DNA of 64,000 nt, taken from NCBI RefSeq assembly GCF_019880545.1, contig NZ_JAINVW010000003.1, forward strand, positions 124,001 through 188,000, given 5' to 3'. Every line of letters starts with the position of its first letter. The first letter of the stretch is position 1. The position numbers and the translations under genes were made by a program. Below the pieces are notes generated by a model. That model ran no database searches and had not been told where the DNA came from. It saw only the letters and a program-made list of their open reading frames with translations. Positions 44,006 through 50,524 of this stretch are shown piece by piece. This DNA comes from Flagellimonas meishanensis (lineage in GTDB: Bacteria; Bacteroidota; Bacteroidia; Flavobacteriales; Flavobacteriaceae).

Positions 44006-44079
44006 GGTCGCGTAGCTCAGCTGGATAGAGCATCTGCCTTCTAAGCAGACGGTCGCAGGTTCGAATCCTGCCGCGATCA
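44006..44079 (+). tRNA. tRNA-Arg (anticodon TCT)
   Basis: 74 nt that fold as a full cloverleaf: acceptor GGTCGCG with CGCGATC (one G-U pair), D-arm GCTC...GAGC, anticodon arm TCTGC-CTTCTAA-GCAGA with TCT in the loop, T-arm GCAGG-TTCGAAT-CCTGC. The CCA end is not encoded. A cassette array follows within 150 bp. Confidence 0.96.
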
Positions 44080-44093
44080 CAAGTAAATAAAGT

Positions 44094-44220: not shown

Positions 44221-44255
44221 GTATACTAACGGTCCTATGCACATTGCTGGCAGAT
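44221..44255 (-). repeat. attC-like site A (short, degenerate), closing the amidohydrolase cassette
   Basis: Read in gene direction: CTGCCAGC, AATGTGCATAGGACC, then GTTAGTAT. It has both outer boxes (AAC-type and GTT-type) and the shared AATGT and GGACC-GTT blocks, but the central variable loop is gone. It is the last site of the array, nearest to tRNA-Arg. Confidence 0.6.
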
Positions 44256-44256
44256 G

Positions 44257-45555
44257 TTATTTTTCGTTTTTGTATATCTTTCCTTCTTTCATTACAAAGG
44301 GTATGTTTTCCAGTAATTTGATATCGGTCAATGGATTCCCCTTTATTGCAATCATATCTGCTAACTTGTCTTTTTCAATGCTTCCTAACTTATCTTCAAC
44401 TCCGAGCAGTTCAGCAGCGGTAAGTGTTGCACTTTTTATAATGTCGATTTCTTTCATTCCTGCATTTTTCATGAGCAAAAATTGTTCAGCATTTCTGCCA
44501 TGGGGATAAACCCCTGCATCTGTTGCAAACACTATTTTCACATTTTGCCGGTAGGCTTTTGAAAAGGTTTCCAATAAAGACGTGAACATTTTATTATTGC
44601 TCATATCAATATCCTTATCATCGTAGTCATTATTCTTTTCTATCAACTCATAATATGCCGACAATAAGTCCATTGACAAATATGCATTTTTTTGAAGCAA
44701 TAGGTCAATTGCCTCATCATCAAGGAAAGTCGCATGTTCGATAGAAGTTACACCAGCTCGTAGCGCATTTTTGATTCCTTCTGCACCATGAGCGTGTGCT
44801 GCGACCTTAATTCCTCTTTTTTCCGCTTCATCCACTGCCGCTTTGATCTCTTGAATCGTATATGATGCAGCTCCTGGTTTTGTTCCGTAGGAACCAAATC
44901 CTCCTGTTGCAAAGATTTTTATCCAGTCAACTTTATATTTTAGATGTTTACGCGTTTCTTTTCGTACTTCATCTTCTCCGTCTGCGATACTTATAAGGTT
45001 TTCACTAAAATTAATTTGAGGGCTTAGCCAATTCCCAAATGCACCATGCCCGCCTGTAATTGTAAGTGCAGGCCCGCTGACATACATTCTTGGTCCAATT
45101 ATCCAGTCTTTATTGATTGCATCCCTCAATGCCACATCGCCATAGAAATAACTATGCAGATCTCGCACAGTTGTAAATCCTGCTTCCAATGTTTTCTTTG
45201 CATTTACGGTTCCAATTATTCCGTAGCTCGCTGCGGGCAACGTGTAAACATCAAAATCATCTTGCTCCATATACCAATTCCCAATTAAATGAGTATGACA
45301 GTCTATTAAACCGGGAAGAATTGTATGGTCAGATAAGTCAATATAGTTTTTCGTCTTGGATAGTTCGGGATTTTTTTCAATTTCAAATATTTTGCCATCC
45401 TTTATTGTAATGAGAACATTTTTTTCTATTCGTTCTGTATTAAAATCTAAAACTCCTCCTGCAAGAATGTATTGATCAGATCCCTGCGCCAGTGTATTTG
45501 TAATGATCAAAACCCAAAAAAATGTAATTCCCCAAATTCTATTTACATTTTTCAT
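44257..45555 (-). CDS. Secreted amidohydrolase (cassette 1)
   Basis: 432 residues. Signal peptide (about 1-23, ending TLAQ). Metal-dependent amidohydrolase superfamily: HxH in DCHTHLIG, the Lys in DWIKIFATGG (bridging, often carboxylated), HAHG, EHATFLD and the catalytic Asp in FATDAG. Closest in feel to imidazolonepropionase-like or prolidase-like secreted hydrolases. The substrate is unknown. It is bounded by attC-like sites A and B, so it behaves as a gene cassette. Confidence 0.85.
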   Translation of the reverse strand: MKNVNRIWGITFFWVLIITNTLAQGSDQYILAGGVLDFNTERIEKNVLITIKDGKIFEIEKNPELSKTKNYIDLSDHTILPGLIDCHTHLIGNWYMEQDDFDVYTLPAASYGIIGTVNAKKTLEAGFTTVRDLHSYFYGDVALRDAINKDWIIGPRMYVSGPALTITGGHGAFGNWLSPQINFSENLISIADGEDEVRKETRKHLKYKVDWIKIFATGGFGSYGTKPGAASYTIQEIKAAVDEAEKRGIKVAAHAHGAEGIKNALRAGVTSIEHATFLDDEAIDLLLQKNAYLSMDLLSAYYELIEKNNDYDDKDIDMSNNKMFTSLLETFSKAYRQNVKIVFATDAGVYPHGRNAEQFLLMKNAGMKEIDIIKSATLTAAELLGVEDKLGSIEKDKLADMIAIKGNPLTDIKLLENIPFVMKEGKIYKNEK

Positions 45556-45571
45556 AAGTGTTCAATTTAAT

Positions 45572-45644
45572 GACTGCCAACGGTGAGTATATGAAGCGTA
45601 GCGACCAAATCGGAGCTATGATTTCATATAACTTGTTAGCATTT
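45572..45644 (-). repeat. attC-like site B, closing the CBM9-like lipoprotein cassette
   Basis: 73 bp imperfect palindrome: outer boxes TGCCAAC and GTTAGCA, inner arms GTATATGAA and TTCATATAAC. Same layout as the other sites (GGT after AAC, short spacer before GTT). Confidence 0.75.
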
Positions 45645-45650
45645 GTTTTT

Positions 45651-46286
45651 TTATCTTATGTTAAACCAATTTTCAGAGTTCATTCTTTCAGAGTTTTTAG
45701 GAAATACAACATCCTTAAACCCTTCTGGCCCTATCATATTTCTTATCTCAATTCTAAGCTTACTCGGTTTTAATTTCCAATAAGACTTTTCAAATTGAAA
45801 TTCAAATCCATCGTAGGGAATGGTAGTATGAGAATAAATATTACCTTCAAAATTCTCACTTCTTAATTTTTCCATTTTCTTTCTGTCGAACTTTACTATG
45901 CTAGATGTCCAAAATTTATTCTGCCCCCAAAGGGTTTCGGGGGATGAATCTGTCCACAATGTATCCTTTAAAATTCTATCGCCCAACTGTGAAGAAGCAT
46001 GAATGTTAACAATAGAATCACCAATATTAACAAACATATCTATATACAATGGTTTTACTAACCCACTTTTCACTGCCATATAAAAATAGTAATCATCTTC
46101 TTTTAGAAAAAGGACATTATTATCATCAATATCCAATGATTGCGCATCTGCCCATTCAGCTCTGTTAATCTGCCCATCGATCAATATAGGTCTAACAGAG
46201 TCGGTTTTTTTTAGATTTTTATCATTCTTTTCATCGCAAGAAGAGCAAAGTAATAAGGGAAGTATAAGCCAGGTTGGAAATTTCAT
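45651..46286 (-). CDS. Lipoprotein with CBM9/DOMON-like domain (cassette 2)
   Basis: 211 residues from the ATG at 46286, chosen because it opens the lipoprotein signal (MKFPTWLILPLLLCSSC); the frame continues 19 codons upstream into site C. The mature part starts with ILIDGQINRAEWADAQ, the usual opening of the CBM9-like sugar- or heme-binding sandwich. Possible sugar- or heme-binding surface protein. Bounded by attC-like sites B and C. Confidence 0.65.
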   Translation of the reverse strand: MKFPTWLILPLLLCSSCDEKNDKNLKKTDSVRPILIDGQINRAEWADAQSLDIDDNNVLFLKEDDYYFYMAVKSGLVKPLYIDMFVNIGDSIVNIHASSQLGDRILKDTLWTDSSPETLWGQNKFWTSSIVKFDRKKMEKLRSENFEGNIYSHTTIPYDGFEFQFEKSYWKLKPSKLRIEIRNMIGPEGFKDVVFPKNSERMNSENWFNIR

Positions 46287-46309
46287 AATTCTTAAAATGT
46301 CTTTAAATA

Positions 46310-46382
46310 AATGCCAACGGTCTGGTGTATGCGATGTGACCAACTTTTGCTGGGCATGACCGTAATATACATTGTTGGCATT
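46310..46382 (-). repeat. attC-like site C, closing the nucleotidyltransferase cassette
   Basis: 73 bp. Outer boxes AATGCCAAC (46310-46318) and GTTGGCATT (46374-46382) are perfectly complementary over 9 bp; weaker inner arms GTGTATG and ATATACA. Confidence 0.8.
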
Positions 46383-46436
46383 TCGTTACTCTTTCTTTTT
46401 ACTTCGTTCCAATTCAAATTCTTTTTTTCTTAGGCA

Positions 46437-47258
46437 TTACCAATCTTCAAGGGATGGTTTGTTATCTCTCCAGGACCATTCCACATCTTCCATAAACCAA
46501 TGAAAAGCTTCAATGTCAGTTACATTCCAATTCCTAAATCCTCGGACGTTTTCAAACAGCCGACTAGCATTTTCCACAGTAGGTTGGTTTAAAACCTGAT
46601 TCATTTCTTTGATCAGGTTCTTGGGCTTGGCATTGCATCTTGACAAGTATTCGTAAAACCACTTGTGATATGGGAAAAATACGCGATTGTATGCGAGAAT
46701 CAATCTCCCGGCAAACAGCACAAGCTGTGATGCGGCGCGGCTTTTCGTATAAATGTTGCCATGTCGCTCAGCTTCACCCATTAGCCAATTCTGAATAAAG
46801 GTCATCGAATAGAATTTTCGTATTTTTTGGTCCCGGTCAGCTTCAGGGTATTGCTGGATAGAATGGATGATGCTGGCCAGATCATCTACTTTTGAAAAAG
46901 CTATGATTGCTCGATCAAATGCCGCTCGGGTGGGTTCATTTCCTCTGTCAACGACTTGCCTGAGGTAGTGCATGTCGATGACTTTTCCATCCACAAAGCC
47001 ACCGGGATAATCTGTCAAGTCCGTTCGGTTGATAAAAAAGTCCCCTACTTTTTGTCGGTTTTTAAATTCCTCATCTGTGGCAACCATCATAAAATCGATA
47101 TCTGATTCCGGCCTGGCGCATCCTTTGGCAACAGACCCGCCGATGATCAACGCCTCAAATCGCTCATCGTCCTGATATTCTTTCACAAGGTTATTGATTG
47201 TACGCTGGTGATGAGGTGAGATACTAGTGTTATGGCTTTTCAAATTCATATCGCTCAA
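46437..47258 (-). CDS. Nucleotidyltransferase (cassette 3)
   Basis: 273 residues. Pol-beta-type nucleotidyltransferase: GGS-x9-DxD in GGSVAKGCARPESDID, the metal site that moves a nucleotide to a hydroxyl. The rest is helical, as in aminoglycoside nucleotidyltransferases (AadA-like size). Integron cassettes often carry such enzymes, so a drug or small-molecule modifying role is plausible, but the substrate cannot be assigned. Bounded by sites C and D. Confidence 0.75.
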   Translation of the reverse strand: MSDMNLKSHNTSISPHHQRTINNLVKEYQDDERFEALIIGGSVAKGCARPESDIDFMMVATDEEFKNRQKVGDFFINRTDLTDYPGGFVDGKVIDMHYLRQVVDRGNEPTRAAFDRAIIAFSKVDDLASIIHSIQQYPEADRDQKIRKFYSMTFIQNWLMGEAERHGNIYTKSRAASQLVLFAGRLILAYNRVFFPYHKWFYEYLSRCNAKPKNLIKEMNQVLNQPTVENASRLFENVRGFRNWNVTDIEAFHWFMEDVEWSWRDNKPSLEDW

Positions 47259-47277
47259 TTTTCTCTAGCTTGCAATG

Positions 47278-47570
47278 AATGCCAACGACCCGCTAAACGT
47301 AGTTCCGGGATTTTTAAGGAAATATAGCGAAATCGTGTAACAATGTTGCAAGAATGACGCTTCCGGTTTGTCTTGTGACATTGTTTGTCAAGTAGGCCTT
47401 GGAGAGGCCGTCACTTGTCGATTTAGCGGTATTGGGAATAAAAATTTCGGGATCAAATTACCGTTTAGTGCCCTGTTATGGCACGTTGCCGCTTGAGCGG
47501 CTCCATAGGCCCGAAGCTGTATGGAGCTTGACCGATGGTAATTTGGTTTAGCGGGTCGTTAGGGCACATT
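47278..47570 (-). repeat. attC-like site D, very long (about 290 bp) and highly structured
   Basis: AATGCCAAC (47278-47286) then GACCCGCTAAAC (47287-47298) on one side; GTTTAGCGGGTC (47546-47557) then GTTAGGGCACATT (47558-47570) on the other. The 12-bp arms are perfect complements. Inside are further hairpins: CAAATTACC with GGTAATTTG, GTGCC with GGCAC, GCCGC with GCGGC, CTCCATA with TATGGAG. Longer than the other sites, as with the largest known attC sites. Confidence 0.65.
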
Positions 47571-47637
47571 TCTTTTGGGGCGGGAGTGCGCAAGCACGTA
47601 GCGACAAAAGTCAGCCGAGGGCTGAATGTGCCCTAAC
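47558..47637 (-). mobile_element. Mini-cassette without a gene
   Basis: Begins GTTAGGGCACATT (47558-47570) and ends AATGTGCCCTAAC (47625-47637), 13-bp perfect complements, as a cassette should. Only about 54 bp lie between, with no open frame. It sits between the nucleotidyltransferase and membrane-protein cassettes. Confidence 0.55.
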
Positions 47638-47764
47638 GGTCTCGTGTATGGCTCGTTGCGGAAAAATCCGTAGGATTCTTTCCGCCGTAGCCCTAAAGAT
47701 AGCTGATTGCGGTGATTTCCGATTAGGAAATCCAACCGCAATGAGCTATACACAATGTTGGGTG
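47625..47764 (-). repeat. attC-like site E, closing the membrane-protein cassette
   Basis: Inner arms GTGTATGGCTCGTTGCGG (47644-47661) and CCGCAATGAGCTATACAC (47736-47753) match over 18 bp with two G-U pairs. Outer boxes: CCCTAAC and GTTGGGT, the latter an exact GTTRRRY. Confidence 0.8.
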
Positions 47765-47821
47765 GCGTTATTTAAATTTTATTTTAGCAATTCCACTGTG
47801 TGAATAATCACTAGAACAGAG

Positions 47822-48178
47822 TTAGTCATTGAATTCCATTACTTTAAAATAAAGTTTGTCTTTGAACGGAAATCCATGAGATTGATACCATTTCGCATAA
47901 AGAGTTGAAATTCCACCATCTTTATTTTTAGCTATTATTTCATAAAATCCAACTCCATAAAATAATGGATTGTTGAAAGGATTAATATCATTTTCGAAAT
48001 TTATATCAAAACGGTCTGCTTTCTCCACTTCTTTATAATTTTCGATTGTCAGTCCATTTCGCTGTAATTCAGTCCTAATTCTGTCCAATGGAATTTTCGT
48101 TTTTTTGTACATGATAGGTCTGAGAAGAGTTATTAATCCAACAACTGCAAAAAATAATATAATTATTCCGAAAACCAT
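47822..48178 (-). CDS. Small membrane protein of unknown function (cassette 4)
   Basis: 118 residues. One N-terminal membrane helix (about 2-20), then a basic/charged soluble domain with a beta-rich second half. No family recognised. AT-rich compared with the neighbouring genes outside the array. Bounded by sites E and F; starts GTTGGGTG (site F) and ends CACCCAAC (site E), complementary as expected for a cassette. Confidence 0.6.
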   Translation of the reverse strand: MVFGIIILFFAVVGLITLLRPIMYKKTKIPLDRIRTELQRNGLTIENYKEVEKADRFDINFENDINPFNNPLFYGVGFYEIIAKNKDGGISTLYAKWYQSHGFPFKDKLYFKVMEFND

Positions 48179-48222
48179 TATTTACTCACAATTCAAATGT
48201 TTATGCTATAAGTTTTTAATGA

Positions 48223-48359
48223 CACCCAACGGTCTCGGCTATGAGTAGTTGCGTGAATTTAGTAATAAATTCCGCAAGTACAAACTGACGGCTGAAATTC
48301 CGAAGGAATTTCCAAAGTAGCCGAGAGTAAGCAATTACTTATAGCCATTGTTGTAGCCA
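48223..48359 (-). repeat. attC-like site F, overlapping the end of the 321-residue gene
   Basis: Inner arms GGCTATGAGTAGTTGC (48237-48252) and GCAATTACTTATAGCC (48331-48346); outer boxes CACCCAAC and GTTGTAGCCA. It supplies the last codons and stop of the 321-residue gene. Confidence 0.8.
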
Positions 48360-49304
48360 GTTTTTATTTCCGTTAATTAGTATATCATTTATGTTTTTTG
48401 TTTCCTTTTTGTTTAAAGTGGATAATTTTCCATTTATAATAAATTCAGTTCGTTGTTTTAAAATCCAAGCTTTCTTAATGAATTCATACTTACAAATTTG
48501 TCTAATAAGTCCATTTTTATAGTAGTCCAATTCAGCTTTGAAATCTTTTTGCTCTTCATCAAATATTCTAGTAAAGATGGTCATTAAATCTCCATTTTCT
48601 GAATAAGAATGTTTTTTTGTGTTTATGCCAAATCCATTTTCTTTTCTGTAAATTATTTTATTCTTTGAATAGACTTCTGTTATATAGGTTTTTGTTGTAT
48701 CACCTTTTTTAGGAAAGTCAAACGAATATTCAATGATTTTTAAGGTGTCATTTTTTCTAATGTAATTTTTAGACCAATTTCCATATTCGCCTGTAGCTAC
48801 AATTTCTTTATTATTATCGTACTTCGAATAGTATTTTCTACTTATTGAATCCCAGTCAGTTGTTACAGTCCATTCAATTGTTTTTTTCTTATTGTTGTAA
48901 GTGAATAAATAGTCAGAATGATTGCTGTTAATCTGTTTTAGCCTTGAATTAACATAAAAATAATTCCAGTAAAATTGAACTTGATTATTTTCAAAAGCCG
49001 TTCCGCTTGCGTAAGTCTTTTCGGAAATCAGTTTATTTTTCTGAAATTCAAAACTTCTGATGTTCCCAATTAATTTTAGGTTCACGTTGTGATGAAATCC
49101 AAATTCGATGTCCTTAATTAATCTGCCTTTTCTATCAAAAATTTTCGTTTCTTTTCTTTCAGGCTCTTTAAATTCCGAGTGGTCAAAAAACCATTCTTGC
49201 GTTATTTCAACCGTGTTTTTTTGTCCAAATAATTCTTGAGAAAAGGATTTATTGAAAGTCGATAATATTAAAAATATGTAAAGAAGTTTTCTCAAAAAGT
49301 TCAA
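48339..49304 (-). CDS. Secreted protein of unknown function (cassette 5)
   Basis: 321 residues. Signal peptide (about 1-22, ending KSFSQ). The mature part has repeated short strands with YSENGD- and YKNGLIRQI-type pieces, reminiscent of YD/RHS-like or MORN-like repeats, but no family can be claimed. The last six residues (WLQQWL) and the stop are encoded inside site F. Clearly AT-rich. Bounded by site F and the array start box at 49314. Confidence 0.6.
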   Translation of the reverse strand: MNFLRKLLYIFLILSTFNKSFSQELFGQKNTVEITQEWFFDHSEFKEPERKETKIFDRKGRLIKDIEFGFHHNVNLKLIGNIRSFEFQKNKLISEKTYASGTAFENNQVQFYWNYFYVNSRLKQINSNHSDYLFTYNNKKKTIEWTVTTDWDSISRKYYSKYDNNKEIVATGEYGNWSKNYIRKNDTLKIIEYSFDFPKKGDTTKTYITEVYSKNKIIYRKENGFGINTKKHSYSENGDLMTIFTRIFDEEQKDFKAELDYYKNGLIRQICKYEFIKKAWILKQRTEFIINGKLSTLNKKETKNINDILINGNKNWLQQWL

Positions 49305-49313
49305 TTTTCAAAT

Positions 49314-49323
49314 TGGCTACAAC
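49314..49323 (-). repeat. Array start box (GTT-type half site)
   Basis: TGGCTACAAC here is the reverse complement of GTTGTAGCCA at site F (48350-48359): the start of cassette 5 and the end of its site F are exact complements. No second half of a site lies beyond it, so the array begins here. Confidence 0.7.
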
Positions 49324-49329
49324 TTAGGA

Positions 49330-49351
49330 ATATAGATCATATGATCTATAT
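49330..49351. repeat. Perfect 22-bp palindrome at the array edge
   Basis: ATATAGATCAT followed by its exact complement. It lies 6 bp outside the first cassette, where an attI site or array promoter would be. Possible operator or promoter-region stem. Confidence 0.6.
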
Positions 49352-49612
49352 ATCTTTTATGTGTGGAACTAAGATAGGAGATCTTTGAGGTTCTTGAATG
49401 AGGTTTTGGTCACTGGGATTTCACGAAATCAAATGTTGTCGCGGCACCGGCTTGCCATGCCACCCGCTCGTGTCTCCGATTGATCAACAGCGGTGATTTC
49501 GAAGAACGGTAACCTTAGCTAACGGCACTCGATCAGAAAAACGACAGGGGAAAATTCCAAAACCCTGTAGGCGTAATAACCACTGGAGAGATCATCAACA
49601 GAATGGATGGTC
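49352..49612. other. Non-coding stretch beside the array
   Basis: About 260 bp with no supported gene. I looked for a truncated integron integrase in all frames and saw nothing I could identify. Confidence 0.4.
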
Positions 49613-50524
49613 TTAATTTAGATCAAACGGTAAGTCCTTAGACTTTAATTGTTGAATATCACTTGGTGATATTCCTTTCGGATCCAAAACTATGGAATGG
49701 AACCTCATTTCATGGATCAATCCATCGCGCGTGGGCAAATATCCCAAACGGTGCGCAAAGGGGACCACAATGCGATCTACCTTTCTAAAATCGTCGAAAA
49801 CAACAAATCCGGCAGCTCTGGGATCTACTACTCTTACGGTATACTGTACAATCTCCAAAAGCTTGGTCTTCTTGTTTATCCAGTAGATATACTGGTCAAA
49901 ATTGTCATTGGCCTTCAAGGTCTTCCAAGTGCCGAAAACCAAATGATAGGTCTTGTTGTTCAGCACTGTATCCTTCACATGGACAGCTATTGGCACCTTT
50001 TTTATCCAATAGGGTAGCTGTATGAAATATTCTTTACCCACCAATGCCGGGATCATGTTCGGATCGTCCACTTTGCCGATATCTCCATTTATTATCTTGT
50101 AAGGAACATTATTGTGGATGCCCCAAACTTCATCTTTGGCAGTGCCCTTGAGCAATGTTACTTTTGAATTACCGAGCCGAAAAGACAGAAAATCGTGTTG
50201 TAATTCTTGTTTTAAATTGGGCCAGTTGTTGTATGGGCGAAGCTGCTCAGGCGCCACGGACCAGTCATCGACATACTTTGTGGAAACTATGCGCGAACTT
50301 CCCCTGATCCATCCATGGGCTTCGGAACATTGGTTTAGAACTTGCCTTCCTTTTTGTTCCCTATCGGAGATTCCCGTGGTTACCCCATTGCCCATATGCA
50401 TGATTTCCACAGGCCTAATGTCCACTGGTTCCGGAGGAGATTGCCCTTGGGCATTCATCAAAGCGCCTACGAACATCAGAAATATGACACAAATAGCTTC
50501 ACTTTTCAATACAGTATTCTCCAT
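49613..50524 (-). CDS. Secreted protein, LolA-like outer-membrane/lipid-handling type
   Basis: 303 residues. Signal peptide (about 1-27, ending NAQGQ). The mature part follows the beta-rich, half-barrel pattern of LolA/outer-membrane lipoprotein-sorting relatives found in Bacteroidota (YKIINGDIGKVDDPNM, YIYWINKKTKLLEIVQYTV, GYLPTRDGLIHEMRF). The assignment is by overall look and is weak. It is 3 bp from the esterase gene, so the two are probably co-transcribed. Confidence 0.5.
   Translation of the reverse strand: MENTVLKSEAICVIFLMFVGALMNAQGQSPPEPVDIRPVEIMHMGNGVTTGISDREQKGRQVLNQCSEAHGWIRGSSRIVSTKYVDDWSVAPEQLRPYNNWPNLKQELQHDFLSFRLGNSKVTLLKGTAKDEVWGIHNNVPYKIINGDIGKVDDPNMIPALVGKEYFIQLPYWIKKVPIAVHVKDTVLNNKTYHLVFGTWKTLKANDNFDQYIYWINKKTKLLEIVQYTVRVVDPRAAGFVVFDDFRKVDRIVVPFAHRLGYLPTRDGLIHEMRFHSIVLDPKGISPSDIQQLKSKDLPFDLN

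Follow-up and report, generated by a model that had tools for sequence, protein, structure and literature searches.

Integrons are the best-known platform for gene capture, and their integrase, IntI, is recognized by an additional domain. Published integron surveys require this domain (PMC9668308, PMC2426708), which is regarded as a defining and indispensable feature (PMC9668308). Integrons are on record for Bacteroidota (PMC8618304); for Bacteroidetes proper, IntegronFinder 2 names a single complete one, that of Salinibacter (PMC9024848), and Bacteroidetes are not represented among the taxon-specific attC models of one published set (PMC8352920). In a classification of tyrosine recombinases it is stated that the insertion is not fully conserved in the integron-like subgroup and yet calls it essential for integron function (PMC8138268); insertion-less proteins have therefore been seen before. 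We describe here a cassette array of Flagellimonas meishanensis (assembly GCF_019880545.1, NZ_JAINVW010000003.1, 124,001-188,000, forward strand). This whole stretch of 64,000 nt is called the window, and all positions refer to it. The region of the window at 44.2-49.4 kb is in all likelihood what is left of an integron-like platform, one whose class is spread through Bacteroidota. By its layout this class is integron-like, yet its recombinase, as judged from the sequence, does not have the domain by which IntI is defined.

Recombinase and sites are found together in related genomes. A looser search of the phylum for IntI pointed to half-matching recombinases, of which five were inspected (367-403 aa), and downstream of all five there are sites that match R1, a covariance model built from 47 aligned sites (16 sites in total, with L172 weak at E 0.0017). 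With A4, a profile built from these five proteins, 41 loci were collected, taken in listed order from the full-length matches that start beyond the first 8 kb of their contig; matches that were not full-length or started within those 8 kb were left out. The 41 loci (722 kb) hold 207 R1 sites, distributed over 34 loci, and 20 control regions placed at round coordinates in the same genomes (398 kb) hold none. In the remaining 7 loci the contig breaks off 136-206 nt after the recombinase gene, which is where it would be expected to end if repeats start at that point, and sites are present at 34 of the 34 loci whose contig continues past the gene. A script placed 195 of the sites, every one of them downstream of the recombinase and on the strand opposite to it; the other 12, at two loci that were located later and not covered by the script (L246 and L257), fit by eye. 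The arrays follow a cassette rule, according to which a cassette starts with GTT and a string whose reverse complement precedes the AAC that closes it. Of 163 pairs of neighbouring sites, 137 agree in 6-7 of 7 nt, where 5.7 are expected. The median site spacing is 675 nt, an upper estimate since some sites were missed. In 144 cassettes shorter than 1.5 kb, the longest open reading frame (ORF) has the common direction in 121, is reversed in 3 and is absent from 20. Three pairs among the 121 proteins are common to different arrays at E 1e-10 or better (84, 70 and 47% identity), too few to show cassette exchange.

In the co-oriented loci the attI adjoins the recombinase gene, and 28 of 32 have the core of the first cassette at a distance of 26-135 nt from the stop codon of that gene. 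Two kinds of attI occur: a palindrome followed by some 6 nt and GTT, or a shorter form in which ATATAAC.A directly precedes GTT. Seventeen pairs of loci whose recombinases share 70% identity or more were compared around the GTT: on average, the 60 nt on its 5' side are 73% identical and the 60 nt on its 3' side 53%, chance identity being about 51% in this comparison, for which the attI core of 10 loci was placed by eye. The pair L357 and L363 is 100% identical before GTT and 56% after. Thus, the first cassettes of relatives differ from the GTT on. A second, divergent layout was seen at 12 further loci, 6 of which were chosen as sites were already seen beside the gene. Here the recombinase is mostly shorter (ten at 272-306 aa, the others 330 and 355 aa), and all 47 sites, in 11 of the 12 loci, lie on the 5' side and on the strand of the recombinase gene, as in classical integrons. 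Of 11 such loci, 8 have the attI at 85-150 nt from the recombinase start codon and one more has it inside a long called ORF; it was not found nearby in 2 of the 11.

In the window the array head lies at 49.32-49.40 kb, on the side opposite the tRNA. Read in gene direction, the first cassette has its GTT starting at 49323. Against a database of 8 loci, 49310-49386 aligns with the integrase 3' end and attI of L235 (88% over 77 nt, E 9e-23), and 49328-49386 with those of L232 (93% over 59 nt, E 5e-20). In the same comparison 49369-49401 aligns weakly with the integrase of the same-genus locus L288, which ends in SFMKIEDLLS and a stop (79% over 33 nt, E 0.14); the remnant shares its DLLS ending with the recombinases that two genomes of the genus carry at L287 and L288. 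From the alignments and this ending we conclude that the integrase gene has been lost except for its last codons. A scan for attI-type palindromes in the window and five other stretches of the same genome (139 kb) gave one other match, at L027, where no R1 site was found.

The features of the region are as follows, with E values of sites from R1, z for the predicted folding of the DNA and end matches counted over the 7 nt beside the GTT/AAC core:

44006-44080, plus strand: tRNA-Arg(tct), bordering the array opposite its head
44228-44258, minus strand: terminal site, degenerate, recognized from the sequence; no R1 match, fold signal absent (z +0.6)
44256-45581, minus strand: amidohydrolase cassette (ORF 44257-45555, Amidohydro_1 E 7.6e-53), ends mismatched, 2/7
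45579-45637, minus strand: attC-like site, short form, weak (E 0.034, z -2.1)
45635-46318, minus strand: cassette of a CBM9-like lipoprotein, as an earlier note named it (ORF 45651-46280, without Pfam family), ends 6/7
46316-46376, minus strand: attC-like site, short form (E 0.0037, z -3.0)
46374-47286, minus strand: nucleotidyltransferase cassette (ORF 46437-47249, NTP_transf_2 E 1.1e-4), ends 6/7
47284-47560, minus strand: atypical 277-nt site with perfect 15-bp arms, no R1 match (z -7.7)
47558-47637, minus strand: gene-less 80-nt unit, ends matching over 13 nt (z -7.3)
47635-47759, minus strand: attC-like site 2 (E 3.9e-15, z -6.5)
47757-48230, minus strand: cassette 2, small membrane protein (ORF 47822-48178), ends 6/7
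48228-48352, minus strand: attC-like site 1 (E 3.7e-20, z -5.3)
48350-49323, minus strand: cassette 1, secreted protein (ORF 48339-49304, without Pfam family), ends 7/7
49321-49352, minus strand: attI, a perfect 22-nt palindrome (49330-49351), 6 nt and the GTT core, resembling the arrangement downstream of intact recombinases
49369-49401, minus strand: 3' remnant of the integrase gene, comprising its final 11 codons, stop included (SFKNLKDLLS and stop), firm for the last 6 codons (49369-49386)

The cassette rule holds in five of the six units, those with two clear ends, in which 32 of 35 positions match; over all 120 possible pairings of the ends the mean is 15.0, and two, the true one among them, reach 32. 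R1 matches four of the six sites, two strongly and two weakly, and the scores of the two strongest are not independent, these sites being among the 47 used to build the model. Of the remaining two, the 277-nt site is atypical and the terminal site degenerate. The former closes units according to the cassette rule without an R1 match, and possibly represents another site class or a composite. A homologue of the amidohydrolase, 41% identical, sits between two sites in the array L222.

The earlier note, made from the sequence alone, had described this region as an integrase-less array of five minus-strand genes and a gene-less unit, closed by six attC-like sites of a class that might be specific to Bacteroidota. 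The genes and the unit are present as it stated, the four pairs of cassette ends that it quoted are exact, and the same sites close cassettes in many other genomes. Its cassette rule extends to all units except that of the amidohydrolase, and four of its six sites are borne out by R1. The tRNA-Arg indeed adjoins the array, at its far end; the start, which the note had placed there, is the attI. Likewise, an intact integrase gene is absent from the window, as had been claimed, and the last codons and the attI persist.

The sites form a coherent class. A scan of their pattern over GTDB representatives gave at least 119 stretches, and all 80 titles listed, from which the taxa were judged, name Bacteroidota, mainly flavobacteria. 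In the alignment of 47 sites, a step that the earlier note had proposed, the hairpin is paired in 94.4% of cells, with 131 cells changed on both sides, a level of covariation that was reached by none of 500 shuffles. Two pairs of the hairpin are nearly always G.T (41 and 46 of 47) in the strand opposite the genes and hence A.C in the gene strand. A third asymmetry was noted in the outer arm, where about 99% of 136 short cassettes have a mismatch at position 8 after GTT (A on one side in 135, G on the other side in 116). Predicted folding favours the bottom strand in 197 of 207 sites, with a mean advantage of 2.7 kcal/mol, and classical integrons also use the bottom strand. When compared with the integron core (GTTRRRY/RYYYAAC), GTT is kept in 159 of 163 starts and the next base is A or G in 133 of the 136 short cassettes; the bases that follow do not fit the RRY. 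Short sites and sites of 190 nt are probably under-detected by R1.

The recombinases were compared with IntI by means of the distance between the motifs KGxKDR and LRHS, which gauges the IntI-specific additional domain (the patch III region). This distance is 60-66 aa in 83 of 83 new recombinases and 102 aa in 28 of 28 IntI proteins of the same phylum, counts in which some genes appear twice and from which 5 motif-less sequences (4 new, 1 IntI) were dropped. On this sequence measure the new recombinases do not contain the IntI-specific domain. In line with it, the IntI model TIGR02249 aligns to them in two stretches with 208-228 bits, below its cut-off of 265. The model NF040815 ('site-specific tyrosine recombinase/integron integrase', cut-off 220) scores 226.0 and 236.0 for two of them and 219.3 for that of L172; it also accepts the XerD of F. 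meishanensis (224.7 bits) and so does not discriminate. Three new recombinases fall below the NCBIfam models for XerD (171-194 bits, cut-off 329.6) and XerC (172-194 bits, cut-off 335.15), and the XerD of F. meishanensis scores 344 bits on the former. Their nearest solved structures include XerA and IntI4. In a tree of 78 proteins, which left out L257 and part of the IntI and same-genus sequences, 16 IntI proteins form one group (100/99) that excludes all others; long branches meet at the junction with the new recombinases, and the tree fits IntI as either sister or derived.

The co-oriented recombinases (L169, L219-L258) carry an extra N-terminal domain of about 70 residues before the SAM-like domain, recognized by eye in 40 of 41 called ORFs of the 41 loci. 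When the domain of L082 was predicted alone, with four sequences aligned, the predicted local distance difference test was about 90 in the core. The best structural matches of this model, all seven top rows, are XPB damage-recognition domains (Z 7.2, 1.6 A over 56 residues, a Z in the range that is possible without kinship). Pfam HARP was reached at E 0.025 in one of five sequences, and no Foldseek match had an E value as low as 0.001. HARP and XPB domains bind forked or distorted DNA. A kinship of the predicted N-terminal domain to XPB/HARP is suggestive only.

Both components are widespread. In the window's family, with one genome per genus and at most 23 candidates scored per genome, R1 sites occur in 131 of 149 genomes; the earlier note had held that the lack of similar sites in related genomes would make the palindromes simple terminators. 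The A4 family is found at E 1e-90 in 83 of these 149, and 80 of the 83 have sites, as read off the listings. Of 375 genomes across the phylum, 107 contain sites (threshold E 1e-5) and 102 contain the A4 family (threshold E 1e-75). The class also occurs on plasmids. Plasmid pPP2 of Persicobacter psychrovividus (404 kb) carries 40 R1 sites in a 40-kb stretch (L376, NZ_AP025294.1 357248-397370), with all sites on one strand and all 38 annotated genes there on the other, and the cassette rule holds in 29 of 39 pairs (3.3 expected). A mobilizable 48-kb plasmid of Flagellimonas marinaquae (L375, NZ_CP092416.1 1816-19938) has two sites flanking a dihydrofolate-reductase-family gene; erm(F) comes next, followed by a recombinase with the annotation xerA. 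The layout is divergent, and a Tn3-family transposase lies beside this stretch. This looks like a mobile integron of the class. No similar site was found in a phage collection.

Cassette rule, AAC/GTT cores and single orientation are all as in integrons, and the array could be regarded as an ordinary cluster of attC sites lacking an integron-integrase (CALIN) that derives from a standard IntI integron whose attC sites are taxon-specific. True IntI does exist elsewhere in the phylum: the looser search, which also serves as positive control, gave 105 of 395 genomes over the cut-off, only one of them in the window's class, and in some phylum genomes (e.g. G417, G428 and G443) IntI and the new family occur together. 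Nevertheless, we regard a standard IntI origin as very unlikely. IntI was found at E 1e-60 in none of 395 genomes of the order, a threshold at which no control genome was matched either, and 9 IntI loci, most with flanks of about 10 kb (165 kb), as well as 21 IntI loci, 20 of them with short flanks, hold no R1 site (L171 is in both sets). Moreover, the remnant and the attI of the window align to the other recombinase class. The search of the genome for IntI that the earlier note had suggested gave none over the cut-off, and the missing enzyme is an IntI-like recombinase without the IntI-specific domain.

It is very unlikely that the cluster was moved by XerCD or other tyrosine recombinases of this genome, though XerCD may act in trans on relic arrays. 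In its favour, a search of the genome, which comprises 6 contigs and has an estimated completeness of 100, found only four PF00589 proteins: XerD, a XerC-like protein, assigned by length and sequence, and two longer recombinases with open frames of 420 and 426 aa. None of them lies at the array, the nearest being the 420-aa frame with a tyrosine recombinase domain at 756-1247 of the window, more than 40 kb away, whereas relatives carry a dedicated recombinase at the array heads. A search of the genome with an array-head recombinase matched the same four proteins and one 74-aa frame (L178, C1:556410-556553; E 0.042 to the catalytic end), which may be a relic or chance. That the palindromes are transcription terminators or dispersed repeats of the repetitive extragenic palindrome or miniature inverted-repeat transposable element type is scarcely credible: most are strong predicted hairpins after genes, but terminators would predict neither unit ends that match over 7-10 nt and vary between units, nor one orientation, nor attachment to a recombinase and attI, and the cassette rule lies far above shuffled pairs.

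Several observations weigh against a remnant of an integron-like platform as we read it. The genome of F. meishanensis contains no recombinase of the class; profile A4 at E 1e-80 gave no match in it, as compared with one in 25 of 60 genomes of the genus. The amidohydrolase unit, which adjoins the tRNA, breaks the cassette rule, and R1 misses the 277-nt and the terminal site. In the relatives, 26 of 163 pairs have fewer than 6 of 7 end bases matching, for which undetected intervening sites are a possible cause, and the attI core was not found by rule in 4 of 32 loci. The sites of R1 were chosen partly by complementarity of the arms, which makes the pair counts lean to structure. In the family, 51 of the 66 genomes without a strict recombinase match (E 1e-90) still have sites, as read off the listings; the sites thus outlive or outspread the strict recombinase family, or are served by something else. 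Finally, excision and integration were not observed, and the sets hold one genome per species, which hides turnover within species.

We propose that the platform consists of a tyrosine recombinase gene, an adjoining attI and cassettes that mostly hold one gene and end in an attC-like site. Probably, the recombinase would recognize the folded bottom strand of the sites, and cassettes would be excised as circles and inserted at attI before the invariant GTT; the complementary cassette ends would result from pairing in the folded circle. Recombination chemistry, the use of single-stranded DNA and present-day activity are what we infer. In F. meishanensis, loss of the recombinase gene except its 3' end would have left a fixed cassette cluster, and the array is probably immobile unless helped.

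The same genome holds 19 R1 matches in all. A second, larger array (L023, C3:376000-395999) has ten R1 sites in about 14 kb, and further sites lie at C1:41.0/41.8, C1:363.5, C1:1305.2/1305.9 and C3:881.5 kb. In an Rfam scan of the window array, the tRNA alone reached the gathering score, and comparison of its cassettes with a defence library gave weak matches only, to the nucleotidyltransferase only. The gene beside the array (49613-50524) is present in 4 of 60 genomes of the genus, including F. meishanensis itself; the three other regions with a homologue have no R1 site and no tRNA, and so show neither an empty site nor another array.

With due reserve, we lean towards a wider reading. A second class of integrons, whose recombinases either lost the IntI domain or never had it, would be the main cassette-exchange system of Bacteroidota. 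It would be present in the majority of genera of the window's family, both in large arrays and on plasmids, and be missed by surveys for which the IntI domain is a requirement. In it, the N-terminal XPB/HARP-like domain would read the folded single-stranded sites and the conserved G.T wobbles would mark the strand, together replacing the IntI domain and the extrahelical bases of classical integrons. A common class of this kind would shift where cassette exchange is placed. If it exists, strand choice without the IntI domain becomes a question, and surveys gain a new search model. It also predicts that many Bacteroidota genes annotated as 'site-specific tyrosine recombinase/integron integrase' are cassette integrases. 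None of the titles and abstract starts listed by our literature searches describes this class, a coverage that excludes preprints and most subscription journals, so that it may be in print elsewhere.

A comparison with the known systems places the class as follows. The integron-like subgroup of tyrosine recombinases differs in that, in the available part of its description, no cassette arrays are tied to the insertion-less members (PMC8138268). The XerA/NF040815 family is alike in that two of the three new recombinases score above its cut-off, and unlike in that the name of the model states no link with such cassette arrays. As in a CALIN (PMC9024848), the window has several clustered sites in a genome without integron integrase, here identified by R1 and not by the IntegronFinder model. 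It differs from a CALIN in being attributable, since an attI and an integrase 3' end are kept, and in belonging to a class outside the search of IntI-based tools. With integrons themselves the platform shares an attI beside a tyrosine recombinase gene, co-oriented and mostly one-gene cassettes, palindromic sites with AAC/GTT cores, ends that pair across the cassette and a bottom strand that is predicted to be more stable. It differs from integrons in its recombinase, which has no IntI-specific domain and, in the proteins of the 41 loci, an extra N-terminal one; in the order of recombinase, attI and cassettes on one strand at those loci; and in the longer complementary arm, which comprises GTT and 7 nt and is followed by an almost invariant mismatch.

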